Part shown: positions 2,093 to 22,216 of the stretch, one piece after another
Position numbering within the stretch: position 1 is the first letter of the stretch
How the letters are laid out: each line of letters begins with the position of its first letter
Assembly: GCA_028282505.1 (NCBI GenBank)
Contig: JANQHV010000368.1
Coordinates: forward strand, 1 to 37,701
Source: SAR324 cluster bacterium
GTDB lineage: Bacteria; SAR324; NAC60-12
Length of the DNA stretch: 37,701 nucleotides
Reading direction: 5' to 3'
Notes under the pieces: generated by a model
The model's database searches: none
Told to the model about the DNA's origin: nothing
Seen by the model: only the letters and a program-made list of their open reading frames with translations
Translations under genes and position numbers: made by a program

Positions 2093-5000
2093 CATCAACA
2101 AAGTCATTGTTCACCTTATGCCTTGAGCTTATGCTCTTCCAATTTTTCCGATCACTGGATAAAAAACCCCATTTTTACGGTTCAGGGATAGTTTTTGTCA
2201 TTGCACTTCTCTTCTTTGTATTTGCCCTGGTTAACACTCCAAGCACTCCAGTCCCATCACAACTACCTTCCTCCCAAAAAATTCAAACCATTCTTGCGAA
2301 AAACCGCATTTCACCGGTGTTTCATGACAGAACAATTCAGGCTGGCCTGTATTTTGTGCACCACCAACGCGGAGAAAAACTGACCGGACTGAATGAAACA
2401 CTGGGGTCGGGTGCATGTGCGATGGATTATGATCAAGATGGCTGGATCGATCTGTTCCTGGTCAATGGAGTCGGGCAAACGTACTTTTATGGACAACGGC
2501 AATGGTGGCAACAGCAAACAAGCCATGCCCTTTATCGTAATACCGGAAATGCAAAATTTGAAAATGTGACCAAGGATGCCAGACTTACTGATCCTTCCTG
2601 GGGAATGGGTTGTGTTGCAGGAGACCTCGACAACGATGGGGACCCGGATTTATTCATCACCAACTTTGGGGCAAATACCCTGTACCGTAATAATGGTGAT
2701 GGAACATTTGAGGATATTAGTAAACACGCTGGTTTTGCAGGAAACCGCTGGTCCACATCCGCTACCCTGGCTGACTATGACAATGATGGTCTGTTGGATA
2801 TTTATGTGGTGAACTACATTCGTTATCAGAAAGGCGGCAATACGCTGGAAGAAGATAGTGGATTCCAAATAAAATCACCTCCTTCCTTCAGTGCCAAGCT
2901 TTATGACAGTGAGGGAAACCGATTGTACCGAAATCTTGGTAATTTACAATTTGAAGATGTAACACGGGATGCTGGAGTCATTGATTCTTCAGGACGAGGA
3001 CTGGCAGCAATCTGGATGGATTTGGACGGGAATCAATATCTTGATTTAGTGGTTGCCAATGATGAGAATTCTCCCAATGCCATATTTCTCAATGCAGGAG
3101 ATGGAACATTCCAGGAAGCAGGCAGTTATTTTCGTTTAAACATACCTCATAGTTCCACAGGACTGGCTACTGGAGATCTGGATAATGACGAAGATCTCGA
3201 TTTGGTAGTAGGCAGTGGCAGTGGATATCCAATGCATTTGTTTATCAACCAGAGGTCTCCTGTCTCCTTTCAATCAGATTTTTATTTTTCTGGAGTCCCC
3301 TTGCACGACCAAGCCCGTGAACGTGGAGTGGGTGACGAAACCTCAATCAGTTTGGCCAATCGCGGCATTGGTATGTTCGATTTCAATAACGATGGCTGGC
3401 TCGATTTATTTGTGGTCAATGGCTGGAATATTCCCGATTTGGACAATCCTGCTTCTGCTCAAGGACAAAGAAAACTGTTGTGGGTCAATCAGGGAAATGG
3501 GATACTCCATGGTGTGGAAAATTTGGAAAGCCTGAGGGATAATTTATCAGCACGTAGCGCTGTTTTTGCTGATTTTGATAATGATGGCGACATGGATATC
3601 TACGTGACTCATAATAATGATTTGGGACAGCTCCTGATGAATGAAACCAAACCACAACATTGGTTAGGCATCCAACTGGAAGGCAGCATCAGCAATCGGG
3701 ATGCCATTGGCGCAAAGGTATGGTTGGGAACATCAAACAAGCGTCAATTTCAAACGGTTCGTCGAGGAGAAGGTTACCTTTCCAATAATGATCCAAGAAT
3801 TCATTTTGGTTTGGGAGAAGCAGCACATGTCAAGCAAATTTCAGTACAGTGGCCTGATGGCACCCAAACCAATTATCCCAATGTACCCGTTGATCACTAC
3901 ATCACTATTTTGCAGGACCAACCCCAAATCAGAATGGTACAAACCACTTCATCCTTTCATGAAGCACAGACTTCCCTGAAACTCCAGCTTGGTTCAGAAA
4001 AGGCGGAAAATCGAGCTGAATATTTACGGTGGTTGGTTGAAAACAATGACATGGATGAGCAATTACGAGAATTAAAAATAGCAGTTCATGATCCAGATGC
4101 CGGTGTTCGAAAGACGGCCATTGAAATGGCAGGAAACATGGAATGGCATCAGGGAATTTCTATTTTGATTCCGGCTCTGGATGATTTAGAAGCCCCCAAC
4201 CGGATTGCTGCGCTTCAGGCATTGCAGCAGTATGAACAAGATATACTGGTTCGCTGGTTACTTCGTTCATTCCATGATCCTTCTCCTCAAGTAAGATGTA
4301 CCGTCGCAGAGGTATTTGCTTCATTTTTTCATGAAGAAGAAGCGGTGATCCATCGAAAATATGCAGCAATTCCTGAGTTAATCCGTCTATTGGATGATAA
4401 AAACCCAAAAGTTCGGCAATGTGCAATTCGAGCATTAGGGCATTCTGAAAATTTTCGTGGTGTGGGACCATTGTTACACTTGCTGGATGATGAGGTGGCC
4501 GAGGTGCGTCTAGAGGCCATTCGATCCCTGGGGCTGATTCGTGAACAACGTGTTGCTCCTGCGTTGCATCGTATTTTTAAAAATCCTGATCAGTCTCCGC
4601 AGGTGAAAGCCCAGGTTTTGATTGCCCTCAAACGGCTTAATGATCCAAATTGGCTGACACTTTTTAAAAATCTGCTGCCTCCGCTTAGTACAACAGACCC
4701 CGATTTCGAAAAAGTGTATATGGCTTTGGAAATTTTACATGCCATACAGGAGGATTATCAAGATGGCGTGGTGATTAGTCACCAAAGACTGCATGAAGTG
4801 GTGTTAGCCTGGCTGGGTTCGCCAGATAATCTCCTGCGATCCAACGTACCGCAAAAAATTACCCTTTCTATTTTAGAAATACTGAAAAAACTGCGCAGTT
4901 CTGATCTATTTACCGTGACGGAGCAATTGACAAATCATCAAGATGCTGTTGTTCGCCAGAATACTTATCAAATGCTGATGCAATTGGATATTCATGACTT

Positions 5001-5724
5001 TATAGCCAACCTCTCAGTCCCCCTGTTGCTGAAGCAGTTGGAGGATTCAGCAACCCGCTTGCTTGCTATCAAAGCACTGGCTCATTATGCCACTGAGGAT
5101 GTGGTGCAAAAAGCACTTCTACGCATCATTGAAGATGATCAACAAGATATCAATAGTCGCTTGGCGGCCTTTGACAGTTTGGGATCTGGAGCAAGTCATC
5201 GAGTTTTATCAGACTACCTTTATCGAGATTCTCATGAACTCCTCCGTGCTGCCTCTCTCAAATATTGGGGAAATCAACTATCGACAGCTATGCCAAAAAG
5301 CTATACTCCTTATCCCTTGATTCACAGTATCCAAGATCCAAGCATGTTCGTCAGGCAAATCGCCGTGGAGATATTATTGAAGCAGAAGGATGCTTGGGCT
5401 AAGCAAATTTTGGATAATATTATTTTAGATGCCAATCAGCCTTTAGATATCCGTGCTCAGGTTCTGCAAGGTTTTCCAATCCATCAAGACAAGGTTCATT
5501 TAGAAATGTTGTTACGATTGGCAAGGTGGAGACACGATCCCATTTATAAAAACGCAATCTCTGGTTTAGGACAGTTCGATGACCCAAGAGCAGAGCAATT
5601 TCTATGGAAGCTTCTCAAAAATAAGAAAGAAATGACAGAAGTGCGTTGGGAAGCGGCATCAGCTCTCCAGCATCGTTCCCCCCAAGCAATACTACAGTAC
5701 GTCAGATCCAAGGATAGCCTATGA
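2089..5724 (+). CDS. VCBS/FG-GAP repeat + ASPIC/UnbV domain + C-terminal HEAT-repeat protein (CRTAC1-like N-terminal half)
   Basis: Repeated DxDxDGxxD motifs (DYDQDGWIDLFLVNG, DLDNDGDPDLFITN, DYDNDGLLDIYVVN, DFNNDGWLDLFVVN, DFDNDGDMDIYVTH); UnbV-like 'RDAIGAKVWLG...VRRGEGYLSNNDPRIHFGLG...VQWPDGT'; many C-terminal HEAT-like helical repeats (VRQCAIRALGH, VRLEAIRSLGLI). N-terminal hydrophobic segment. GTG start overlaps previous stop. Confidence 0.88.
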   Translation: MTSTKSLFTLCLELMLFQFFRSLDKKPHFYGSGIVFVIALLFFVFALVNTPSTPVPSQLPSSQKIQTILAKNRISPVFHDRTIQAGLYFVHHQRGEKLTGLNETLGSGACAMDYDQDGWIDLFLVNGVGQTYFYGQRQWWQQQTSHALYRNTGNAKFENVTKDARLTDPSWGMGCVAGDLDNDGDPDLFITNFGANTLYRNNGDGTFEDISKHAGFAGNRWSTSATLADYDNDGLLDIYVVNYIRYQKGGNTLEEDSGFQIKSPPSFSAKLYDSEGNRLYRNLGNLQFEDVTRDAGVIDSSGRGLAAIWMDLDGNQYLDLVVANDENSPNAIFLNAGDGTFQEAGSYFRLNIPHSSTGLATGDLDNDEDLDLVVGSGSGYPMHLFINQRSPVSFQSDFYFSGVPLHDQARERGVGDETSISLANRGIGMFDFNNDGWLDLFVVNGWNIPDLDNPASAQGQRKLLWVNQGNGILHGVENLESLRDNLSARSAVFADFDNDGDMDIYVTHNNDLGQLLMNETKPQHWLGIQLEGSISNRDAIGAKVWLGTSNKRQFQTVRRGEGYLSNNDPRIHFGLGEAAHVKQISVQWPDGTQTNYPNVPVDHYITILQDQPQIRMVQTTSSFHEAQTSLKLQLGSEKAENRAEYLRWLVENNDMDEQLRELKIAVHDPDAGVRKTAIEMAGNMEWHQGISILIPALDDLEAPNRIAALQALQQYEQDILVRWLLRSFHDPSPQVRCTVAEVFASFFHEEEAVIHRKYAAIPELIRLLDDKNPKVRQCAIRALGHSENFRGVGPLLHLLDDEVAEVRLEAIRSLGLIREQRVAPALHRIFKNPDQSPQVKAQVLIALKRLNDPNWLTLFKNLLPPLSTTDPDFEKVYMALEILHAIQEDYQDGVVISHQRLHEVVLAWLGSPDNLLRSNVPQKITLSILEILKKLRSSDLFTVTEQLTNHQDAVVRQNTYQMLMQLDIHDFIANLSVPLLLKQLEDSATRLLAIKALAHYATEDVVQKALLRIIEDDQQDINSRLAAFDSLGSGASHRVLSDYLYRDSHELLRAASLKYWGNQLSTAMPKSYTPYPLIHSIQDPSMFVRQIAVEILLKQKDAWAKQILDNIILDANQPLDIRAQVLQGFPIHQDKVHLEMLLRLARWRHDPIYKNAISGLGQFDDPRAEQFLWKLLKNKKEMTEVRWEAASALQHRSPQAILQYVRSKDSL

Positions 5725-7760
5725 AAAATCATATTTACCTGGCAATCGAAGCACGATCTCGACCACAACTGCTATGCTGGTTTCTGATTGCCTCCATTAG
5801 CGGATTTATTACGTATTTTTTTGTGGGCCAGTCCACATGGCAACAATGGACTTATCTTTTGCATACCTTCAGTGGCATGGTGTTGGGGATACTCATCATT
5901 CCATATACCATCACCCACCTTCTGCGTACTTTTAAGCTTCGGCCATTGATTTCCTTTATAACAGGCTGGGTGGGATTACTGGCATTATTTGGATTGACCG
6001 GCAGTGGCATGTACATTGCCATTTTTGGACAATCGGAATCACTACGCTGGATAGAAACAGCACATATCTGGTGTTCCTATATCACCATTATCATGCTGGT
6101 GGGGCATGTTTTATGGAAGCGACGGATGTCTTCAAAAGGATCTCCTTCTTCGAAGGGTGCCATTCCTTTAAAATGGGAGGAATGGAAATATAGCTTTCAA
6201 GGGATTCTGGCAGCAACTGCTGTTGTGGCTTTGGCAACCTGGATGTATGGTATTTTCTTACCAGAACTACCAGATCGGCCTGCTGTGGAGCCTTATGAGT
6301 TACCATACACGAATCATCCTTTCCAGCCCGGACAAACAGAGACAAAAGATGGAAATTTTGTCAAAACACATGAAATCGCTGGTTCCTATCAGTGTGGAAG
6401 CTGCCATACCGAAATTACCAGGCAATGGAGGTCATCTATTCACAGTCAGGCTGCCTCTGACCCGACTTATGTGACCAACATCAATTTTTTGGTAGAACAA
6501 CGCGGAATTGCGGCCACACGTTATTGTGAAGGCTGCCATGCCCCGGTTGCTCTCCTGACCGGAGAATTGACCGAGGGAGGAAAGCATGGTGGTATTGCTG
6601 GAACAGTAGCTAATGAAGAAGGGGTGAGTTGCATGAGTTGTCATGGCATTGAAAAAGCCGTACATTTGAAAGGGGTCGGGAGTTATCAGTTTGCCCCATC
6701 AGCAGATTACCTCTTTGCTGGCGTAACAGAAAACAAGTTTTTCCAGAAAATCAATCATTTTTTAATTCGCATCCATCCTCTTCAGCATCGAACGGATATG
6801 GCCCGCAGTATTCTTGGCGCTCCTCAAATGTGTGCGACCTGCCATGAATCCTATATGGATAAAGACATGAACAATTGGGGGTGGGTCAAGTTACAGGATG
6901 AATACACTGCCTGGTTGAATGGCCCTTATTCCGGTCAGAGCGAACAATCTTTTTCTCATCAATCAATAAAACGTTGCCAGGATTGCCACATGCCACTGGT
7001 ACCTGGTGATGATCCTTCTGCAAACACGAGTGGGAAGATTGTCTCCCACTACACTCCTGGAGGGAATACAGCCATCCCTACCATAATGGGGAACCGTGAG
7101 CAGTTTCTACTGGTTAAAGAATTTCTACAATCGGATAAAATACACATCGTGATTGAGGAACCCCAAAGGCACGATGCTGCCCGAAGTGAGCAGTTTCTTC
7201 ACAAACCGGCTCATCTCAACAAAGAACCCCCTGCCTATCTCTACCTTGGAGAACATGCTTCCATTCAGGTCGTTGTGACCAATACAGGAGTCGGCCATAA
7301 CTTTCCTGGTGGCACCATCGATATCAATCAGGCCTGGATTCAATTCCGAGTGGTGGATGCTGAGAATCAGCTGATCTATGAAAACGGCTACCTTTCTTCC
7401 AAACAAGAACTCGATCCCAACGCCTATGTCTACCAATCCATTCCAATTGACCGTTTTGGTAAGCATGTATGGAAACATGATTTATTCAATATGGTTGGAG
7501 AAAGTTTTCACCATGTTATCCCTGCTGGTAAATCTGACACGGTGGAATACTCATTCCTGATTCCTTACTGGGCAAAGAATCCACTGACCATCAGTGCGGT
7601 ATTGCGTTATCGCAAATTCAATCAAGCCTATGCCAGGTGGGCTTTGCAGGATGAAGACATTGAATTGCCCATTGTGGATATGGCCAGAGACGCGATTCAT
7701 GTTCCACTCCGGGTTCGCTCAGAACTGGAGGAAAAAATGGTAAATAATGGGAGACTTTAA
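5721..7760 (+). CDS. Membrane-anchored multiheme cytochrome c family protein with cytochrome b-like N-terminal TM region
   Basis: Five CxxCH motifs read in frame (CGSCH 6393, CEGCH 6525, CMSCH 6630, CATCH 6831, CQDCH 6975); about five N-terminal hydrophobic segments with His in helices; ATG overlaps upstream stop (ATGA). Confidence 0.9.
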   Translation: MKNHIYLAIEARSRPQLLCWFLIASISGFITYFFVGQSTWQQWTYLLHTFSGMVLGILIIPYTITHLLRTFKLRPLISFITGWVGLLALFGLTGSGMYIAIFGQSESLRWIETAHIWCSYITIIMLVGHVLWKRRMSSKGSPSSKGAIPLKWEEWKYSFQGILAATAVVALATWMYGIFLPELPDRPAVEPYELPYTNHPFQPGQTETKDGNFVKTHEIAGSYQCGSCHTEITRQWRSSIHSQAASDPTYVTNINFLVEQRGIAATRYCEGCHAPVALLTGELTEGGKHGGIAGTVANEEGVSCMSCHGIEKAVHLKGVGSYQFAPSADYLFAGVTENKFFQKINHFLIRIHPLQHRTDMARSILGAPQMCATCHESYMDKDMNNWGWVKLQDEYTAWLNGPYSGQSEQSFSHQSIKRCQDCHMPLVPGDDPSANTSGKIVSHYTPGGNTAIPTIMGNREQFLLVKEFLQSDKIHIVIEEPQRHDAARSEQFLHKPAHLNKEPPAYLYLGEHASIQVVVTNTGVGHNFPGGTIDINQAWIQFRVVDAENQLIYENGYLSSKQELDPNAYVYQSIPIDRFGKHVWKHDLFNMVGESFHHVIPAGKSDTVEYSFLIPYWAKNPLTISAVLRYRKFNQAYARWALQDEDIELPIVDMARDAIHVPLRVRSELEEKMVNNGRL

Positions 7761-7909: not shown

Positions 7910-8608
7910 ATGAGTAATAAAGGAACTCGCAATTTTTCAGAAATCAATGACAATGATTTGTCGACTGAATCTCCTAAATTGATGGATCTTTTAAATGTGT
8001 TTAAATTAAATTTAGAAGGTGCCGTCATGGATTTAGAAGAAGCCATCCCAACACTAACTGAACCCGCTGAAACAAAATTGTTAGCTACTTATATTGAGAC
8101 AGTTCGAAATATTATTTCTGAAATAGGTGGCATTGAATTTTTTGAATATTCCAGAGAGCATTATCAAAAACAAATGTTAGTGTTAAGGAAGCATATCGAT
8201 ATCTTTAAAGGATTATCAGTATTTGAAATAATGTTCATTGCCCAAGAAATGCAAGAAACCACACTACGAGCTGAACTGAATTATATCATGAAAAAAGGAG
8301 AACCCGTCGACGGAGTATACTTTTTAAACAAAGTAGCAGCAGATGGAAAAATAGTTGATACTGTAGAAATCACCGAAGATGGCAAAAAATTTTCACTTGG
8401 TAAAGACAGATTAATTGGACATTATGCTTTTAGTGATAAAGAATACTTAGCATCCAATTCTACAGTCAAAGTGATACATGATGTCAAGGCATTCAAAATT
8501 GAAAGCAATAAATTTCATGAGCTTCTGAGAAGATTTCCACAAATTTTAACAAATATTCATGAAAAGTTGAATCAGATCAAGGACAGCAAACATGAAAAGC
8601 ATGAGTAA
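7910..8608 (+). CDS. Cyclic nucleotide-binding-domain-like protein (divergent)
   Basis: C-terminal half has the cNMP-like layout (FKGLSVFEIMFIAQEMQ...IMKKGEPVDGVYFLNKV...LIGHYAF...VKAFKIESNKFHELL). N-terminal helical region unassigned. Confidence 0.55.
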   Translation: MSNKGTRNFSEINDNDLSTESPKLMDLLNVFKLNLEGAVMDLEEAIPTLTEPAETKLLATYIETVRNIISEIGGIEFFEYSREHYQKQMLVLRKHIDIFKGLSVFEIMFIAQEMQETTLRAELNYIMKKGEPVDGVYFLNKVAADGKIVDTVEITEDGKKFSLGKDRLIGHYAFSDKEYLASNSTVKVIHDVKAFKIESNKFHELLRRFPQILTNIHEKLNQIKDSKHEKHE

Positions 8609-10690: not shown

Positions 10691-11362
10691 ATGTCAACAA
10701 CTTTAGCATTTGATGTATATGGAACTCTGATCAATACTCATGGTGTGACAGTGGCTCTGAAAGATTATGTGGGAGAACGAGCTGATGATTTTTCTCGTTT
10801 GTGGAGGGAAAAGCAGTTGGAATATTCGTTTCGCCGTGGCTTGATGCAAAATTACCAGCAATTTTCAGTTTGCACCCGTCAGGCTTTGGATTATGCCTGT
10901 CTTTTTTATAAAGTGTCGCTTACAGAAGAGCACAAGCAACGCTTGATGCAGGAGTATCGTGTGTTACCAGCCTTTCAGGATGTCAAAGATGGGCTGACAC
11001 GGGCTCAAGAAGCAGGCTTCCGTATGTTTGCCTTTTCCAATGGCAGCACCGATGCTGTGGAAATGTTGCTGCAAACCGCAGCAATCCGCCATTATTTCGA
11101 AGGGGTGGTCAGTGTCGATTCTCTAAAAACTTTCAAACCCAGTCCAGCCGTCTATTGTCATTTTCTGAGAAGCACGGGTTCGTTGGGAGCTGAAGCCTGG
11201 ATGATTTCCAGCAATCCTTTTGATGTCATTGGTGCTGTTTCTGCTGGAATGAGAGCTGCTTGGATCCAACGCTCACCCGAAATGATTTTTGATCCCTGGG
11301 AAATACAACCCACCCTGACCCTGGAGAGTCTCACTCATTTAGCAGAGCAGATCAAACAGTAG
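10691..11362 (+). CDS. Haloacid dehalogenase type II-like HAD hydrolase
   Basis: HAD motifs LAFDVYGTLINT, FAFSNGS, KTFKPSPAVY, WMISSNPFDVIGAVSAGMRAAWIQR. Confidence 0.88.
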   Translation: MSTTLAFDVYGTLINTHGVTVALKDYVGERADDFSRLWREKQLEYSFRRGLMQNYQQFSVCTRQALDYACLFYKVSLTEEHKQRLMQEYRVLPAFQDVKDGLTRAQEAGFRMFAFSNGSTDAVEMLLQTAAIRHYFEGVVSVDSLKTFKPSPAVYCHFLRSTGSLGAEAWMISSNPFDVIGAVSAGMRAAWIQRSPEMIFDPWEIQPTLTLESLTHLAEQIKQ

Positions 11363-13811
11363 TGTCGTCACCTTCCTTGTGGAGTTTTGTCTTGCTTTGA
11401 AGAAAATGAAGGCAAGCCTGAGTATTTTGGTTGAACCACCCTGAAAGGTTAAAATGATTATTGAGGATCAAAAATAAGTTTTGGTAAAAATAAGCGGAGT
11501 TCTTACCGTTCACCTTGACGGGATAGAAGGGGACTGGTTTGTTGGCCACTTTCAATTCCTGAGGAATATTCTTCAACAGGGCTTTGGTTTGATAGGTTTG
11601 TTTGACACTCTTTTTTAAATAATCGGCATAAGGGTGCTCACTCTTATTAAGGAAACTTTGTAATACCGTCAGATACGGCAGATGGTATTTATACTCAATG
11701 TCACATTTTAGTGGAAATCTATTGATAAAGGACTGGTCATATCCAAATAAAACAGGAACCAAACCAATACAAATGATCACATCAACCAGAGGATTGGACT
11801 TATATTTTGTAATAAAGCACGCATGCTCTTCAAATAATTGAAATTCACGCCCTTCATTTTTGGATATGGCATTCACTCGAAAGCCAAGCTCCTTCTTGCG
11901 CAATTCTGTGAATAATTGAGTAAAACATAGTTGGAATTGAGCGAGAATCTCAAAGTCTTGATCAAAAAAATCAAAAACTTCCTGATATTCATCCGTAAAT
12001 TTGATCAAACGGTATTTAGTCACCGGATGTTTTTGTTGAATATAATATTTTTCCTGCACATTAATCGGTGTCAAATATTTCAGAAGAGACCGATCTTGTT
12101 GGATCGTTTCGGCATGTTGGGCCTCGATCATTTTTTTATTACTTTTTTCTTCAGTCACACGCATTATTTTTCTGGCTTCAATCTTTTTATAAACCTGGTT
12201 GATGTCAGGGTTTTTTATGGAAAACACACCAGATTTGACCATATCCACAAACCAATTCTCTGCAAATTCACTGATATTTTCCGATTGAATCACAGATTTT
12301 AAGACTTTCAGATTGGCCAATGCTTCAGAGTGACTGGGGGAAGGCGGGATTTTTGCCAACTGTTGGATATAATCCAATGTCAATTGCACGTTCTTCATGA
12401 CCCTGGTTAATGTGGAAGGAGACAACAAAAATAAATCTTCTTTCACAACATTGCTCTCCATTTGAAATTCCGTATCATCGATCAATTTTTTGATAGAGGG
12501 CGTATCCATTTGAGGATTTTTATAGATATAGGCCAAAATAATTTTTTTATAGATTCTTAGATGACCCGCATCTTCTTCATTGAAGATGATCTGACAAATG
12601 TTTTCAATGAGATATTCCCATTTGTATTTTGAAAATGAATAAATCCCACGATGAAGCTGAAGTGCCTGATAAATTTTTACGATGAGAACCAATCGTTCTT
12701 GTTTATCCGTAATAATCTGATTGGTCAGATGTTTTCTATTATCAGATGACAGAATGGCCATCAAAATATATTCCTGTTCTTGTTCTAGATCCAGACCGTG
12801 GTGCTCTGCCTGGCGTTTGATGAAATCACTGTTGAATAATTTCAAATAAAATTTTGAAATTTCTTTTCGAAATAGAAAAATGTCGCCGATTAATCGAGAA
12901 TCCTTAAAAGAAGCAATCATATTCTCAATTTTTTCATGGAGTTCTTTATAATAATTAGAAAGTTGGAATATAAACGCAATGGCTACCTTATCCTGTTTTC
13001 GAATTTGCTGCATGAGAATTTGTATAAACTTGGTAAAATCCGAAAATTGTTCAAAATATCCCAACTCTTCTGTGATGAAGTATTTTTTTTCGTTCTCAAA
13101 TTGTCTGAAATTTTTGTAAGTATTGACGATAATAGCCGTAAGCTCTTTATTCAAGTCACCACGCTTGTGGGCAGACACAAGAATTTTCTTTAATTGATCC
13201 ACTTCAATATCCGCATATTCAGCAATCAATTGCTTGAGGGGTTTATTAGGACGCTCTATAATTTCGCGCAGGGAAAAATCCAGGATTTTTTCAGAAATCA
13301 GATGACCTAAATGGCTTTCATCGGATAACCATTCCTCCGTTTTCACTGGAGAGTGGCTGGCTGCTTTTTCTTCTGGTGAAGAATCTGAGAGAATGGCCTC
13401 CAACATACCTTTCAATTGGAGATACTCTTCGAAATACCAATGAACGATGCTGGTGGTTGTTTGTATTGCCAGCTCAGAATCTTCTCCCGTTAACTCATCT
13501 TCTTCTTGATAGTGGGCTCCTTCATTGGCAATATCTTTGACAAAGTGCAATTTTTTGATAATGATTGACGGTGCGGCTTTGTTTGCCTTCAATTTGTTAA
13601 TAATGCTGGCCAGGCCTCCTTTTTTTGGTATGTTTTGTCCTTTGATTTCTTTTTTGTGGATGGTGGTACAAATGTTTTCTATCAAACGACGACAATGAAC
13701 AACGGCCCCAGAAGGATTCTCATAACAAATTTTCTTTGCCTGGATATATTCATTTTTGATGAAAAGAATGTCTTTGTTGATTTTATTATCAGGATGAAAC
13801 TGGCTTTCCAT
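11352..13811 (-). CDS. Large DUF4145-like-domain protein of unknown function
   Basis: N-terminal region (AKKICYENPSGAVVHCRRLIENICTTIHKKEIKG...LHFVKDIANEGAHY) has DUF4145/HEPN-like layout; the rest is unassigned. ATG at 13811 preferred over the TTG at 13862. 3' end overlaps the convergent HAD gene. Confidence 0.6.
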   Translation of the reverse strand: MESQFHPDNKINKDILFIKNEYIQAKKICYENPSGAVVHCRRLIENICTTIHKKEIKGQNIPKKGGLASIINKLKANKAAPSIIIKKLHFVKDIANEGAHYQEEDELTGEDSELAIQTTTSIVHWYFEEYLQLKGMLEAILSDSSPEEKAASHSPVKTEEWLSDESHLGHLISEKILDFSLREIIERPNKPLKQLIAEYADIEVDQLKKILVSAHKRGDLNKELTAIIVNTYKNFRQFENEKKYFITEELGYFEQFSDFTKFIQILMQQIRKQDKVAIAFIFQLSNYYKELHEKIENMIASFKDSRLIGDIFLFRKEISKFYLKLFNSDFIKRQAEHHGLDLEQEQEYILMAILSSDNRKHLTNQIITDKQERLVLIVKIYQALQLHRGIYSFSKYKWEYLIENICQIIFNEEDAGHLRIYKKIILAYIYKNPQMDTPSIKKLIDDTEFQMESNVVKEDLFLLSPSTLTRVMKNVQLTLDYIQQLAKIPPSPSHSEALANLKVLKSVIQSENISEFAENWFVDMVKSGVFSIKNPDINQVYKKIEARKIMRVTEEKSNKKMIEAQHAETIQQDRSLLKYLTPINVQEKYYIQQKHPVTKYRLIKFTDEYQEVFDFFDQDFEILAQFQLCFTQLFTELRKKELGFRVNAISKNEGREFQLFEEHACFITKYKSNPLVDVIICIGLVPVLFGYDQSFINRFPLKCDIEYKYHLPYLTVLQSFLNKSEHPYADYLKKSVKQTYQTKALLKNIPQELKVANKPVPFYPVKVNGKNSAYFYQNLFLILNNHFNLSGWFNQNTQACLHFLQSKTKLHKEGDDTTV

Positions 13812-13950
13812 ACTCTTTTTAGATCCAATGATTCTATAGTGCTCAAGAAAAGTTTTTTCCAAATGATCTTGTTTTTGCTGTACAACTCGTTCCAGCTCGC
13901 AACTGGAGTTTTGGAAATGGGATTTGAGAAGTGAGAGATGATTTCAACAG

Positions 13951-14373: not shown

Positions 14374-16443
14374 ATGGCATTAAAGATTAAATACCACTTT
14401 GTTCCTGATGGCAATATTGCAGCTCTTGAACATTTGGCACCCGATGTATTTTATGTGGGAGTCGGTTCCATCCATCATCCCCAGGTGTTCGATCACCATG
14501 CGGGTCAGGCAGGCACCGACACGACCCCTGCCGCTTTGATCTGGGATGCACGAAAACAGCTATATGAAAGTGCAAAATCGTTAGAATCGCTTACCATTTA
14601 TACCCATCGTAATCCTCAATGGAGTGCTTGTTGGGGCATCATCCTGCTGGAATGGATTCTGAATGGACAGGAATTGGAAGAAACCAAAATAACGGCACTG
14701 AATACTTACAGCAGTTTTGTTTTATCCGGATATAATCCTTCGGAAGGCCCGGTCGAGCAGTCACTCATTGCCGTCTATTCCAGTGTCATGTCAGAGATTG
14801 AAGAAAAAGAACGGGATTTCGATGTTCGTGATTTAAAAAAAATCCAAACGGCTTATCAATTCTTTTCGTTTTGTTATCAGCAATTCCAAGATTACTCTGA
14901 CCTCAAAACAGGGCATTTTTTTAGAGATGACGGCCCTTATGGAAAAGCCAAACTGCATATCCGTGAAGACCATCAAGTTTACTTAAGAGACCTCCAAAAA
15001 GGTTTTCGATTCACAGCATTATTGGAACACCGAACTGGAGAAAAATTGCGGATTGATGGGCTTAAAATTGAAAAACCCTTGTCTCGACTATTCAAGTTTT
15101 GGGCTCGTAATGATCGTGAACATAGTTTTTCGAAAGCAGGATTTCCACTTACCTGGGTCCAGTGGGAACCCAACAACTGGGTGCTGACCGTCAATCCCAC
15201 CAGTGGATATCACTTAAAAGGGCTGGGAGAGTTTCTTACCAGAGAAGAACATAGAATGATTGCTCCCCCCCTCGATATGCTAAACCGTGAAGGGTATGAT
15301 AGCCCCAACCCCTGGTATGATGCCCGTAACTCCCCAGGAGAATTTACCATTGTGGCTAGTCCTCATGGAGGGACTCAAATGTCCCCCAGGCAAATTGAAA
15401 AATTATTGCGCAGATGGTTCAAAGTGCGACACTGGCAATCGGCTAAGACCAAACCGACCTGGTGGAAAAACAATTTTGCTTACTTCAGTGTTGCAGCCTC
15501 TCTGATTTTGTTAGCTGGAACCCTGTATTTGCTCTATCCCAATTTAACTGAGCTGGAGTGTGATAGGCGCAGAGGTCTTCCAGAACTCCAAGTCAGTCAA
15601 GGAAAGCACTATGCCATTGTCATTGGCATCAATGACTACAGTCAATCTGAAATGGAAGATGGGAATCCCTGGGATAATTTAAACAATCCTGCGAGAGATG
15701 CCATTAGGATCATGTGGTTTTTGGAAAACAAATTTCATTTTGAGCCTGTGCAACCAGGAGGAAGCCTCTTGATGGTTAACGGAGCAACTCATCTCAGGCT
15801 CTCTAAAAGTATTCAAAATTGGTTTGAAACGGTTAGCCACACATTAGATCAAACAAGGTTCTCTCCCTCTCTGGGCAATATCAATGTGCAAATTCAAAAA
15901 CTGGCCGAGTCCTTGACCGATCAGGACTCCTTATTGATTTATTTTGCGGGGCATGGTTCCATGTCGAAATCATTGGGCACGTGGATTCCATCAGATTTCA
16001 AGCCTGGGGAAGATATTTCATACGACCGGATTGAAGGCATCTTAAAACGGAGCGATGCCCGGCATATTTTGGTTGTGGCTGATTCCTGCTACTCTGGAAA
16101 ATTTCTGGAAGAAGACATCATGCGCGGAACCGAGGACTATGGAGATACTACAGCCGATGAAAACACCAAAGCCTTGTATCAATTGTTTTCCAGGCAGGGC
16201 CTGACTGCAGGATTTTTAGAACCTGTCTCTGATGGAAAGCGAGGGGAACACAGTCCATTTGCAGGATGTTTCCTAAGATCACTGCGGAAAAGCAAGGAAT
16301 TCCTCTCAGCTCACGCCCTTTTCATTCAAATCAACCAATGTATGCAAAAACAAAGCTCTGTGCAAAAAGTCCTATTTTCTCCCAAAAAAGATTTATGTGA
16401 CCAGGGAGGAGAATTTATCTTCCGAAAACGAAGTTTATTCTAA
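14374..16443 (+). CDS. DHH-phosphoesterase-like N-terminal region + single TM + caspase-like (peptidase C14) protein
   Basis: C-terminal caspase fold motifs: start KHYAIVIGINDY (from 15604), LLIYFAGHG (His codon 15952-15954), ILVVADSCYSG (Cys codon 16087-16089). TM-like YFSVAASLILLAGTLYLLYPN at 15481-15543. N-terminus has 'VFYVGVGSIHHPQVFDHHAGQ', resembling a DHH motif. Confidence 0.85.
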   Translation: MALKIKYHFVPDGNIAALEHLAPDVFYVGVGSIHHPQVFDHHAGQAGTDTTPAALIWDARKQLYESAKSLESLTIYTHRNPQWSACWGIILLEWILNGQELEETKITALNTYSSFVLSGYNPSEGPVEQSLIAVYSSVMSEIEEKERDFDVRDLKKIQTAYQFFSFCYQQFQDYSDLKTGHFFRDDGPYGKAKLHIREDHQVYLRDLQKGFRFTALLEHRTGEKLRIDGLKIEKPLSRLFKFWARNDREHSFSKAGFPLTWVQWEPNNWVLTVNPTSGYHLKGLGEFLTREEHRMIAPPLDMLNREGYDSPNPWYDARNSPGEFTIVASPHGGTQMSPRQIEKLLRRWFKVRHWQSAKTKPTWWKNNFAYFSVAASLILLAGTLYLLYPNLTELECDRRRGLPELQVSQGKHYAIVIGINDYSQSEMEDGNPWDNLNNPARDAIRIMWFLENKFHFEPVQPGGSLLMVNGATHLRLSKSIQNWFETVSHTLDQTRFSPSLGNINVQIQKLAESLTDQDSLLIYFAGHGSMSKSLGTWIPSDFKPGEDISYDRIEGILKRSDARHILVVADSCYSGKFLEEDIMRGTEDYGDTTADENTKALYQLFSRQGLTAGFLEPVSDGKRGEHSPFAGCFLRSLRKSKEFLSAHALFIQINQCMQKQSSVQKVLFSPKKDLCDQGGEFIFRKRSLF

Positions 16444-16592: not shown

Positions 16593-16832
16593 ATGCCTAC
16601 CATCACACTGAAAAATATTCCAGAGCAGCTTCATAGAAAACTTAAGCAAAATGCTTCTCACAATCATCGTAGCCTCAACAACGAAATTATTGCTTGTCTT
16701 GAAAGCTCAGTCCATGCCTCTCCGATAAACAGTGAACTACTGTTAGCACGTGCTCGTACGCTCCGCAGCCAAATTTCAGGGCACTTGACAGAAGAAACTC
16801 TTGCTGATTTCAAAAATCAAGGACGGCTATGA
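16593..16832 (+). CDS. VapB/FitA-like ribbon-helix-helix antitoxin
   Basis: MPTITLKNIPEQLHRKLKQNASHNHRSLNNEIIACLE resembles Arc/FitA RHH antitoxins; stop overlaps the PIN gene start. Confidence 0.85.
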   Translation: MPTITLKNIPEQLHRKLKQNASHNHRSLNNEIIACLESSVHASPINSELLLARARTLRSQISGHLTEETLADFKNQGRL

Positions 16833-17239
16833 TCGTTGTTGATACAAATGTAATTGCCTACTTTTGGATTCCTGGAAGTTATACCCAAGAGGCAGAAAAA
16901 GTTTTTCAAATTGACCCCGAATGGAAAGTTCCGTTATTGTGGAAGTCTGAGTTACGTAATGTTTTAATCAACTATATCCGGCATGAGTATTTGACATTAG
17001 ATGTTGCCATACAAGTCATGTCCGATGCGGAAGCACAATTGAAGCTACATGAATTTTCCGTCACTTCTACAGATGTTCTTCGCTTTTCAAGTCAATCAAA
17101 GTGTGCCGCCTATGATTGTGAATTTGTTGCTTTAGCAAAAGATTTACAGGTCTCTTTAGTCACAACAGATAAAAAAATTTTATCAGAATTTCCAGATGTC
17201 GCCATTTCAATGTCACGTTATATTGCCCAAAACAAGTGA
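16829..17239 (+). CDS. PIN domain toxin (VapC-like)
   Basis: MIVVDTNVIAYFW, ELRNVL, YDCEFVALAKDLQVSLVTTDKKIL: PIN acidic motifs; ATGA overlap with the antitoxin. Confidence 0.88.
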   Translation: MIVVDTNVIAYFWIPGSYTQEAEKVFQIDPEWKVPLLWKSELRNVLINYIRHEYLTLDVAIQVMSDAEAQLKLHEFSVTSTDVLRFSSQSKCAAYDCEFVALAKDLQVSLVTTDKKILSEFPDVAISMSRYIAQNK

Positions 17240-17342: not shown

Positions 17343-18680
17343 GTGCTCAATATTATTGAGAATGCGACACCGCCTTTCACTATCGCTGTTTATGGGGGAT
17401 GGGGAACCGGCAAAACCAGTATCATGAAGCAACTGTTTTTCAGAGCAGGAGGACAGATTTCTTCCGTTCTCTTGCCATTTTCGGAAAGTCCCGATAACGA
17501 ACAACTGGAAGCAGCAACACTGGAGAAAATCAAGACACTCCGCAAAGCACACACACCAGAACTGGTAGCCGTTTGGTTCAACCCCTGGGAGCATCAATTT
17601 GAAGACGAACCCATCATTGGGCTCTTGCATGAAATTCGGGAAAATTTTAATTTATTTTCCAAAGTCGAAGAAGAGGCCAAAAAACTCGCCGAAGTCACCG
17701 TCAGGAGTGGCCTTGATATTCTATCCAGTATCATCAGCAACTTGAAAAAAATAAAGATCGACCCCGGTAAAATTGAAAAACATGGCGAAAATTACGAAGA
17801 GAAGCATTTTCAAATCAAGAGTTCTTCTCAACGCTTCCGTCTGCTATTTGAAAAGGCCATTGGCAAATTGATCGGCAAAGACCGTAAGGCATTGGTCATC
17901 TTCATTGACGACCTGGACCGCTGTTCGGATCAAAATGTCATCAGACTGATTGAAGGCATCAAACTTTATTTTTCAACGTCCAATTGCATTTTTGTTTTTG
18001 GCATGGATCAATACAATGTGCTGAGAACCCTGGAAAAATTCAACATTCATAAAGATTATCTGGACAAACTCTTCCAATGTGTCATCCGGGTACCTTTGAG
18101 CAAAAATTATGAAAAATTCATTGATGGCATTATCCAGGAGTATTTTGAAGATGTGGGGGCCAATGAACTGGTGCCCGTACTCTCAGACATTTTAGAAAAG
18201 AATCCAAGAAAAGTGAAAAACTTCCTCAATTCGTTCAGAGCTTACTGGGACATGTGGAAACAAGAGGAAGCAAAGCAAAAAACCGGGGATTTAAAAATTG
18301 AAATTTTTGCTTTGTTCCATTTGTTGAGAATCCACTTCGAACCAATTTTTACCATCTTGGAAAGAAATCCAGAGTATGTTCACAATTTGGCAAATGTGTG
18401 CAAAAATAATGCTCCTGACCAAAAAGTCGAACACATGTTTCAAAAATATTTGAAAAACCCCATTACCGAACAAATCACGGTAAATACTGAATCTGAAACT
18501 CAAATTATCTTACCTGATAAACTGGATAAAGAAGAATTGGAGTATATGGAAGATATCTCGTTTAAATACGAAGCTCTGGAAAAATTCAAAGAACGCTTTG
18601 TCCAATATTATGAAGACGATCCAGCACAGTTTTCTCCCGAAACCGTCAGCATCTACCTGGGAGTGATTGAAAGCGATTGA
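17343..18680 (+). CDS. KAP family P-loop NTPase (coding similarity extends upstream to about 17277)
   Basis: Walker A YGGWGTGKTS, Walker B ALVIFIDDLDRC, 'IRLIEGIKLYFSTSNCIFVFGMDQ', 'NPRKVKNFLNSF' typical of KAP NTPases. Confidence 0.88.
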   Translation: MLNIIENATPPFTIAVYGGWGTGKTSIMKQLFFRAGGQISSVLLPFSESPDNEQLEAATLEKIKTLRKAHTPELVAVWFNPWEHQFEDEPIIGLLHEIRENFNLFSKVEEEAKKLAEVTVRSGLDILSSIISNLKKIKIDPGKIEKHGENYEEKHFQIKSSSQRFRLLFEKAIGKLIGKDRKALVIFIDDLDRCSDQNVIRLIEGIKLYFSTSNCIFVFGMDQYNVLRTLEKFNIHKDYLDKLFQCVIRVPLSKNYEKFIDGIIQEYFEDVGANELVPVLSDILEKNPRKVKNFLNSFRAYWDMWKQEEAKQKTGDLKIEIFALFHLLRIHFEPIFTILERNPEYVHNLANVCKNNAPDQKVEHMFQKYLKNPITEQITVNTESETQIILPDKLDKEELEYMEDISFKYEALEKFKERFVQYYEDDPAQFSPETVSIYLGVIESD

Positions 18681-18682
18681 AC

Positions 18683-21595
18683 ATGAATCAAGTCCTGCAA
18701 CCTGGTTTTAAAGAAACCACAGAACAACAACAATTTCGTCAAACGTATATGGATAAAATCCATGCGATCTATCAGTTTGATGAATCTCTGGGAATTATGG
18801 ATTTGGGGCAGGATAAAAAGATCTCCCTGCAGGACATTTACGTTCCTCTCCGCTTTGCCCAACAGGAATTAAGCGAAACGAGGGATTGGGATATTGAAGG
18901 AGATACGCTTTCTCTGCTGAATATCCTGGAGCGTTCAAGACATATCGTTTTATCAGGGAGGCCCGGCAGTGGAAAAACCACTCTTTCCAGAATGATGATC
19001 AACTTGCTTTCATCAAGAGCCTTAACGGCGTTAGCGGAAAAATGCGGCAGGCGGTTGCCTCTATACTTCAAATTACGGGATTATCAAATCAGTCATCTTG
19101 TTTCGGCAGAGGAATTGTTCGAAGCGTTTATAACGTCCCAGGGACGAACACTGGGACTTGCCCTTTCACGGGAACACCTGGAATTTTATCTGAAGCAAGG
19201 CTGGTGCTTTCTGATTTTTGATGGTGTGGATGAAGTAGGAGGATTGAAAAACCGTCTAAAAATTAGGGAGTTTGTCCTGAAGTATTTCACCCGTTTTCAC
19301 TCCGAAAACTACATTATCGTTACCAGTCGCCCTTCTGGACTGGAGAATGTCCCTTTCAGCAGTTATCTCAATGAAAAAGAACAACACGAGTCTCTGCATT
19401 TATTAACCTCCTTTTATACCGACTCCTTCAACAAATCCCAGGCTCGGGAATTCAGCCAGAAGTGGTTCACTTTGCGGGAAGAAAATCCAGAAATTGTCAA
19501 AAAGAAGAGCAATGAATTTCTAGAATCTATCGAACAGATCAAAAGCCTTTCTGTCTTGAGACGACGGCCCGTTTTTTTAACCATGATGGCTCATATCCAC
19601 ACTACAAAAGGCAAATTACCACATTCACGAGCAGCTGCTTACGAATATATGGTAGAAGCATATATCGAAAATATTGACATCACCCGCAGACTGCATAAGG
19701 ACCTTTATCCTGAGGAACACTATCATGAATGGAGTTTTGAGGATAAAATTAAACTCTTGCAGGGGATTGCCTACAAATTTCAATTAACTGGAAGCTCCGA
19801 CAAAAAAAAGAACGATGAGGAATCTCTGATTGTTGTGAACCGGGAGGAATTGTTATCGATCATCAAAGCTATTATTGAAGAAAACAAAGAAAGCTGGCAA
19901 ACGATTCTTCCTGGGCATGCTGAGTCTCTTCTTGGATTTTATTTGACCCGTACTGGACTGCTGCATGAACCGGAAGACAACAAAGTCCAGTTTTCCCATT
20001 TGAGCTTTCAGGAATATCTGACCGCCCGTTTTATTTACAGAAAAGTCATTGACAACTATTTCAGCGCACTTGCTATTATTAAAGATGAAATCATGAGCAG
20101 GCTAACAGAAAAAATGTATGGCCGCTGGAGCGAGGTCATTTTGCTCTTTTTCAGTCTCAGCAAAGCCACAACAAACGATACGTTACGTGCCATTCAACAG
20201 GAATTGAAAGCTGATGAAGCAAAACATCAAGAGCGGATTGGTAACTTCCACAGGCTAGTGCTAACTATGTTGGATTCAGAAGAATACGGAATTAAAGAAT
20301 CAAACATGCCTTATTGGGTCGAACAGGTTTTTGAATATATGGTTAGGTTGGATATGAATAATCCAAGAAATGAGGGCCGAGCTTCTGTAAACAAAGGTTT
20401 TGTTTTGATTCAGACCTATTTCGGTTCAACAGAACGCTCTTGCAAAATTCAGCTTGCCGAAAAGACGCTGAATGAATTATTTGACAGCTATTTCCAAGCT
20501 ATTCAGCAAGATAATCACAATACTGACGCTATCAAAGGCCTGGAAAATACTATTTATGCGATTACTTACGATGCCAGAGTAGCGAATCAATTTAAGGCAA
20601 AAGCAAAAGAAGCATTACCAGTGATATTGGATAGAAATTTCTTTGATTTCCAGTTTATTGCATGTGCGGAACTTTTGACTTTTTATTTTAATGAGTTTTC
20701 TCAAACAGTGGCTGATACCTATACAATTGATGAAGCAATCATTTGCAAGCATTTAATGAGTTTTTCTATTTTTAAGGAATTTTCAAAAAAAGAGAGAAAG
20801 GACAATTGGAAGCTTCAAATAGCGGAATGGGCATGGCTAGTTGAAAAATGGTTTGTATTTTCGTTGTTAAATCATCTTTATTTTGCACATAGTCAAGCAA
20901 ATCTAAAAGAGCTATCTAAAATTAACAAGAACAGTTTATTAGAATTATTTAATGCAGAGATAAGCAATTTTTACAAGCGGAACTGGTTTTTAAATATTTG
21001 GCATGGATATCCTGGTGGCTTCGAGTGTGCAGAACAAAAAGTATGTGGCCTCGAACGTTTTAGAGCAATTTCCATACTCGTCTCTAAATCTCTTTTCACA
21101 GAGACAGGTGGTCGTCTTACAGAATATGCAACTCCAATATCCACCAAGGCAAGGAAGGTCACAGAGTTTTATAGTGGATATCGAGGAATAGAAGCAGGAG
21201 ATTCACCTGACTGGTTGAAAATACTACTCTCTTCTTTATTATTGGCTGATGCTGATATCAAATTTGAACAGGAGTATCGAAAACTTCCAATTCCCTGGCA
21301 AACGTATCATGAGTTTGAAGAATTTAATCATTTGATCAGCCAGCCTGAGTCATTGTATGATTACTTGTTGGAAAACTGTGAAGAAATCATTGATAAAACT
21401 GAGTTTTTAAAGCAGTATCGTGAGTATGATCAAAAGCCCTATGCCATGAGCAAGATGGTCAAAGAAATTCTGGACAGAGGTGAGCAGTATTATCCGACTT
21501 TTTCCAATGAAGAGGCGATGGAATTGAGCATAAAATTATTGAATGAATTTTGTGAAAAAGAAGCAGAATCGTTGAGGAGTCAAGAAAAGCTTTAG
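18683..21595 (+). CDS. NACHT-domain STAND NTPase with long C-terminal helical region
   Basis: Walker A VLSGRPGSGKTTLSR, Walker B WCFLIFDGVDEVGG, YIIVTSRPSG, 'VQFSHLSFQEYLTARFI'. ATG 2 nt after the KAP stop (TTG at 18677 also possible). Confidence 0.88.
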   Translation: MNQVLQPGFKETTEQQQFRQTYMDKIHAIYQFDESLGIMDLGQDKKISLQDIYVPLRFAQQELSETRDWDIEGDTLSLLNILERSRHIVLSGRPGSGKTTLSRMMINLLSSRALTALAEKCGRRLPLYFKLRDYQISHLVSAEELFEAFITSQGRTLGLALSREHLEFYLKQGWCFLIFDGVDEVGGLKNRLKIREFVLKYFTRFHSENYIIVTSRPSGLENVPFSSYLNEKEQHESLHLLTSFYTDSFNKSQAREFSQKWFTLREENPEIVKKKSNEFLESIEQIKSLSVLRRRPVFLTMMAHIHTTKGKLPHSRAAAYEYMVEAYIENIDITRRLHKDLYPEEHYHEWSFEDKIKLLQGIAYKFQLTGSSDKKKNDEESLIVVNREELLSIIKAIIEENKESWQTILPGHAESLLGFYLTRTGLLHEPEDNKVQFSHLSFQEYLTARFIYRKVIDNYFSALAIIKDEIMSRLTEKMYGRWSEVILLFFSLSKATTNDTLRAIQQELKADEAKHQERIGNFHRLVLTMLDSEEYGIKESNMPYWVEQVFEYMVRLDMNNPRNEGRASVNKGFVLIQTYFGSTERSCKIQLAEKTLNELFDSYFQAIQQDNHNTDAIKGLENTIYAITYDARVANQFKAKAKEALPVILDRNFFDFQFIACAELLTFYFNEFSQTVADTYTIDEAIICKHLMSFSIFKEFSKKERKDNWKLQIAEWAWLVEKWFVFSLLNHLYFAHSQANLKELSKINKNSLLELFNAEISNFYKRNWFLNIWHGYPGGFECAEQKVCGLERFRAISILVSKSLFTETGGRLTEYATPISTKARKVTEFYSGYRGIEAGDSPDWLKILLSSLLLADADIKFEQEYRKLPIPWQTYHEFEEFNHLISQPESLYDYLLENCEEIIDKTEFLKQYREYDQKPYAMSKMVKEILDRGEQYYPTFSNEEAMELSIKLLNEFCEKEAESLRSQEKL

Positions 21596-21778: not shown

Positions 21779-22216
21779 GTGAAGGTATATCTTGATAATT
21801 GTTGTTTAAATCGACCTTTTGATGACCAAACAAATTTAAGAATCCATCTTGAATCAGAGGCAATTAAGGTGATATTTCTTTCATGTGAACAGGGGCATTG
21901 GGATTTAATCATCAGTGTCGTCAGTAAATATGAAGTTGCCAATACACCTGACAATGCCAGAAGAAAACAACTAGAGTTGATGATTGAAATAGCCGATGAT
22001 ATGATTGAAATTAATGAGAATATTGAGAAAAGAGCAAAACAGTTTGAAATTTCAACTGGAATGAAAGCGTTTGATGCATTGCATCTTGCTTGTGCCGAAA
22101 CAAAAGCTGATGTATTTTTAACAGTCGATGATCAGTTTTTGAAAAAAGCTCGATCAATAGAAAACTTGAATGTACAAGTCGAAAATCCATTGAAATGGGC
22201 GGAGAAGGTACTTTAA
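21779..22216 (+). CDS. PIN domain protein (putative toxin)
   Basis: MKVYLDNCCLNRPFDDQ, SKYEVANT, MKAFDALHLACAETKADVFLTVDDQFL: PIN motifs. Confidence 0.85.
   Translation: MKVYLDNCCLNRPFDDQTNLRIHLESEAIKVIFLSCEQGHWDLIISVVSKYEVANTPDNARRKQLELMIEIADDMIEINENIEKRAKQFEISTGMKAFDALHLACAETKADVFLTVDDQFLKKARSIENLNVQVENPLKWAEKVL

Follow-up and report, generated by a model that had tools for sequence, protein, structure and literature searches.

In this study, we describe a gene encoding a 689-amino-acid (aa) protein (positions 14374 to 16443, forward strand, ATG start) in a 37,701-nucleotide stretch of DNA from a SAR324 cluster bacterium, referred to here at its full length as the window. The open reading frame (ORF), its Pfam match and the full-length relative L017 show an N-terminal domain joined through a single transmembrane (TM) helix to a caspase, as an earlier note on this DNA had proposed; the span given there for the fused DHH-like part (14374 to 15543) corresponds to aa 1 to 390, that is, the domain plus the TM helix, and the strings quoted from it occur as stated. 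The N-terminal domain (aa 1 to 345; 14374 to 15408) is predicted by AlphaFold2 as one confidently folded unit (predicted local distance difference test, pLDDT, 89.2; predicted template modelling score, pTM, 0.86), and the profile of the family described below, which includes the window protein among its own rows, matches it with an expectation value (E) of 3e-135. Hydropathy places the TM helix at about aa 369 to 387 (15478 to 15534), with charges of +3/-0 on its N side and +3/-3 on its C side. The caspase (Peptidase_C14) domain occupies aa 412 to 661 (15607 to 16356; Pfam E 9.1e-12; 45.6 bits against a cut-off of 21.4), and motif inspection together with the relatives identifies an intact catalytic dyad, His527 (YFAGHG; 15952 to 15954) and Cys572 (ADSCYSG; 16087 to 16089). 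Only the caspase is recognized above cut-off by Pfam; for the N-terminal domain, searches of Pfam, NCBIfam, PADLOC and PDB sequences gave no match.

The best reading of the N-terminal domain, judged from its sequence and that of its relatives, is that it represents an undescribed, circularly permuted DHH-phosphoesterase-like family, which the profile libraries used miss because the chain is rearranged. A literature search, mainly outside subscription papers, turned up no earlier account of a DHH family in permuted form. Thirty relatives of the domain were gathered from several phyla, and ten of them, termed intact, carry all four DHH motifs (D, DHH, HxxPDxDA and DxG); this set comprises standalone, cyclase-fused and TIR-fused proteins and one member with several TM segments. 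Motif II reads DVGN, DTGN or DAGN, and HxxPDxDA is slightly varied in two members. Whereas the canonical order is I-II-III-IV, the order in the intact members is II-III-I-IV, with motif I after motif III, and the window domain has this same order. The DHH triplet stands at the column of the window's FDHH both in L017 (again as FDHH) and in all ten intact relatives, which removes the concern that FDHH was a chance match. Moreover, in seven of the eight intact members tested, the motif I part of the Pfam DHH model (about its first 50 positions) matches downstream of the DHH motif, always below threshold; the best relative in native order reached 23.0 bits against the PF01368 cut-off of 28.1, and the window protein gave no match.

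The permutation is shown by profile alignment with hhalign, for which NrnA-like proteins from the window's phylum were used instead of RecJ, since RecJ gave no match in either motif order. In native order the family profile aligned with the NrnA-like proteins over 29 columns covering motif I only (score 40.5, probability 55), while the canonical order, obtained by putting the motif I unit first, extended the match to 83 columns spanning motifs I, II and III and the next helix (score 63.6, probability 94.8). The canonical order scored above all controls, namely 200 random segment moves (maximum 54.7) and 120 shuffles of the N-terminal columns (maximum 47.0). The high score was kept with motif I placed anywhere ahead of motif II, and the gain disappeared when it was placed after motif II. 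A profile search of the PDB returned no DHH protein in native order and, in canonical order, the cyclic dinucleotide phosphodiesterase GdpP alone, weakly (E 0.6). The AlphaFold model of the intact Thiohalocapsa member L021 (pLDDT 92) gave two DHH proteins, GdpP (probabilities 0.91 and 0.85) and a yeast exopolyphosphatase, as its top three Foldseek matches in the PDB (E 2e-3 to 5e-3), and phosphoesterase, exopolyphosphatase and DHH proteins were among the better matches of an intact-member model in a viral structure library. The structural comparison proposed in the earlier note ranked DHH proteins first for an intact relative, but the window's own model found no DHH structure and no significant PDB match; the DHH relationship claimed there is drawn for the window domain from its relatives, from their motifs, hhalign and Foldseek results. 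That note had also placed a later segment in a DHHA1-like position, an assignment that gained no support: the C-terminal part alone scored 10.7 (probability 0) against the NrnA-like profile and had no Pfam match. A coincidental origin of FDHH and THxxP, in a domain unrelated to DHH enzymes, would agree with the lack of an above-threshold Pfam match in any member tested and with the unmatched window model. However, the co-occurrence of four motifs in ten intact members, the reordering test with its controls, and the appearance of GdpP and exopolyphosphatase at the top of the structural matches make this explanation, already disfavoured, very improbable.

In the window copy, motif III (FDHH; aa 39 to 42; 14488 to 14499) and the motif I His78 are kept, and all four metal-ligand Asp residues are lost. 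According to the motif table, the motif II position (VFYVGVGS, aa 25 to 32; 14446 to 14469; DVGN in relatives) has G29 in place of Asp, and the motif IV position (FVLSG, aa 115 to 119; 14716 to 14730; vDrG in relatives) has L117. The displaced motif I (THRNPQWSA, aa 77 to 85; 14602 to 14628; THxxPDxDA in relatives, in which positions of about 2 to 50 of Pfam DHH match here) has Q82 and S84 where both Asp residues are expected. Of the metal-binding motifs that had not been obvious in the earlier note, motif I is there, shifted downstream because the family is permuted. DHH enzymes require the motif Asp residues for metal binding. It is very unlikely that the domain is a still-active phosphodiesterase which degrades the trigger and so times the caspase, as NrN does for CorA; the intact relatives do have all motifs, and L017 retains two of the four ligands (the Asp of motif II and one of the pair in motif I), but the window protein has none of the four.

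Loss of the DHH motifs is general among the caspase fusions, since each of the 11 is degenerate in them and retains the His/Cys dyad of its caspase; in nine fusions from Planctomycetota the whole DHH segment is gone. The C-terminal subdomain behaves otherwise, with LFKxWARxD, PWYDGR and TIVDAP recognizable in nearly all members; in the window they read LFKFWARND (aa 239 to 247; 15088 to 15114), NPWYDAR (aa 312 to 318) and FTIVASP (aa 324 to 330; together 15307 to 15363), the last two being present in nearly all degenerate members. L017, the closest relative, is 46% identical over 694 aa, and the sensor domain is conserved better than the caspase (57% against 41%), the C-terminal motif part being the best-kept part of the domain (62%). 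Because the DHH motifs are degenerate while the caspase dyad and the C-terminal motifs persist, and because the sensor is conserved above the caspase, the window domain is more in keeping with a binding domain than with an enzyme, as had been suggested from the single sequence. What it binds may not be a small molecule. It is conceivable, although we think it distinctly less likely than a ligand sensor, that the DHH-derived domain has become a protein-interaction or oligomerization module whose trigger is a protein partner or a membrane state; the loss of every metal-ligand Asp in the window, the missing DHH segment of the Planctomycetota fusions and the superior conservation of the C-terminal motifs would all suit such a role. 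Against it, His78 and DHH are kept in both the window protein and L017, and the relatives accompany CorA and cyclases, which are nucleotide-signalling contexts.

The permuted DHH-like family is rare and scattered. The domain is single-copy in its own genome and has one clear relative among 52 genomes of the window's phylum; profile searches found it in the phylum of a Desulfobacterales relative (2 of 395 genomes), in the Thiohalocapsa order (9 of 195) and in Planctomycetota (11 of 392). A scan of 84,980 genomes, with a query alignment that held two artificial consensus rows to broaden the DNA patterns and with matches confirmed against the window sequence only, yielded ten loci. A tblastn search of plasmids and phages with the window protein found no relatives, nor did viral scans with a single sequence and with several alignments; a plasmid search with the relative from the window's phylum led to a Thiodictyon protein, which in turn led to Caballeronia proteins. 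Two short orphan fragments of the family were also seen, a C-terminal one of 87 aa (L018, 4324 to 4584) and an N-terminal one of 69 aa (L013, 1483 to 1692). In the tree, the window protein and L017 form a pair separate from a Planctomycetota group, both well supported. The domain-TM-caspase architecture is found again in Planctomycetota, where cyclase and caspase interchange within the group. Since the starred branches require at least two changes of caspase label, the caspase fusions likely arose separately.

The partners of the family point to nucleotide signalling. Five standalone members (L018 to L022) lie directly behind mutually homologous CorA-like genes, and the three partners tested all match PADLOC CorA-like models (E 2e-21 to 3e-13); at one locus (L020/L102) the two genes are within about 0.5 kb of a repeat array of the CRISPR (clustered regularly interspaced short palindromic repeats) type that is accompanied by ORFs for Cas1, a Cas2-like protein and Cas6 fused to a reverse transcriptase. 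At L022, the CorA-like partner frame (4454 to 6250) is no longer similar at its end and has no C-terminal TM part, which a frameshift may explain. Where the domain is fused to a CorA-like C-terminus it is degenerate; in a TIR fusion (L088, 2773 to 4374, reverse strand; E 2e-10) it is intact, and of the fusions to class III cyclases (E 4e-11 to 4e-15) two are intact and two degenerate. A 1347-aa Caldiserica protein (L024, 3213 to 7256) combines an intact permuted DHH domain with a long region and six C-terminal hydrophobic segments.

In type III CRISPR systems, corA is adjacent to or fused with a gene for the DHH-family phosphodiesterase NrN, which degrades SAM-AMP (S-adenosylmethionine-AMP; PMC10600005). 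The present family shares its four motifs (HxxPDxDA, D, DHH, D) with NrN/NrnA-type enzymes. Its intact members adjoin CorA-like genes, and fusion to CorA-like parts is seen for degenerate members, which recalls the arrangement of nrn and corA (PMC10600005). The family differs in its motif order, in a C-terminal subdomain (PWYDGR, TIVDAP) for which no match to the C-terminal part of NrnA was detected and, in the window copy, in the absence of metal ligands. Likewise, intact members directly downstream of genes matching PADLOC CorA models recall the CorA effectors of type III CRISPR, although CRISPR genes stand beside one of the five pairs and the window gene has no CorA partner. Among PDB structures, an intact member is closest to GdpP, a DHH/DHHA1 enzyme (5xt3, probability 0.91), with a template modelling score of only 0.25 in sequential alignment, which is what a permuted chain would be expected to give; in contrast to GdpP, no DHHA1 similarity was detected in the family, and its partners are class III cyclases, CorA, TIR and caspase. 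A membrane-linked caspase and a swap between caspase and cyclase are also features of the EACC1-associated caspase system (system 4, in which the cyclase is a cyclic nucleoside monophosphate (cNMP) cyclase; eLife 2020, PMC7159879). In the window, however, the caspase is C-terminal, no neighbouring EACC1 gene was identified, and the protein scored 48.9 bits against the NF047832 (EACC1-associated caspase) cut-off of 140.

By analogy with CorA-NrN and GdpP, the permuted family most likely handles nucleotide signals, with SAM-AMP or a similar nucleotide as the lead hypothesis for its ligand. With moderate confidence, we favour a pseudoenzyme sensor, derived by permutation from a DHH domain, that gates a membrane caspase in a defence or suicide response. 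The domain, having lost its metal-ligand Asp residues, would bind a small signal that is probably a nucleotide second messenger; once bound, it would act through the single TM helix to bring caspases together and activate them, and the active caspase would then cleave cell proteins. The small-molecule trigger that the earlier note had envisaged remains an inference of this kind. In the caspase fusions, positive charges lie N-terminal to the TM helix, with a weak bias in the window protein itself, and the positive-inside rule suggests a sensor inside and a caspase outside the membrane. A wider scheme, in which catalytic copies would reset the systems of CorA, TIR and cyclases and degenerate copies would serve as receptors of nucleotide-gated, membrane-spanning caspases with the protease outside the cytoplasm, is more speculative, and we consider it rather unlikely as a whole.

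Several observations weigh against the pseudoenzyme sensor. No ligand-making enzyme was recognized beside the window gene, L017 shares no neighbour gene with the window, and CRISPR genes were seen beside only the L020/L102 pair. As to the DHH ancestry, the failure of the window's own model in Foldseek counts here as well, the assembly of motifs I to IV into one site is presumed, and de-permuted sequences gained no overall score against Pfam DHH. Pfam was dropped as proof of the permutation for lack of a clear gain over native scores.

Most of the nucleotide sensors known to control immune effectors are CARF and SAVED domains. The window domain is a new, permuted variant of DHH ancestry that probably serves as a sensor here. 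A recurrent domain of this kind, partnered by CorA, TIR, cyclase or caspase, would amount to a further sensor/hydrolase family with a directly testable ligand, and would suggest how a group of bacterial membrane caspases is set off.

The window contig (C494) holds none of the three Cas10 matches of the host genome, which lie on three other contigs (C205, C195 and C257). A joint operon of the caspase gene with the PIN-KAP-NACHT genes downstream was considered and rejected, as L017 has none of the window's neighbours. Directly downstream (17343 to 21595) come a KAP NTPase gene and, overlapping its stop codon with a TTG start, a gene for a NACHT protein; the two are likely a coupled pair of the STAND/NLR type, and two PIN-domain genes (16829 to 17239 and 21779 to 22216) flank this pair. 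The divergent neighbour of the caspase gene encodes an 836-aa protein (11352 to 13862, reverse strand) with an N-terminal DUF4145 (E 8e-8), and a further protein (7910 to 8608) has a weak, sub-cut-off match to a cNMP-binding domain (E 3e-4). The genome to which the window belongs contains eleven caspase (C14) matches.
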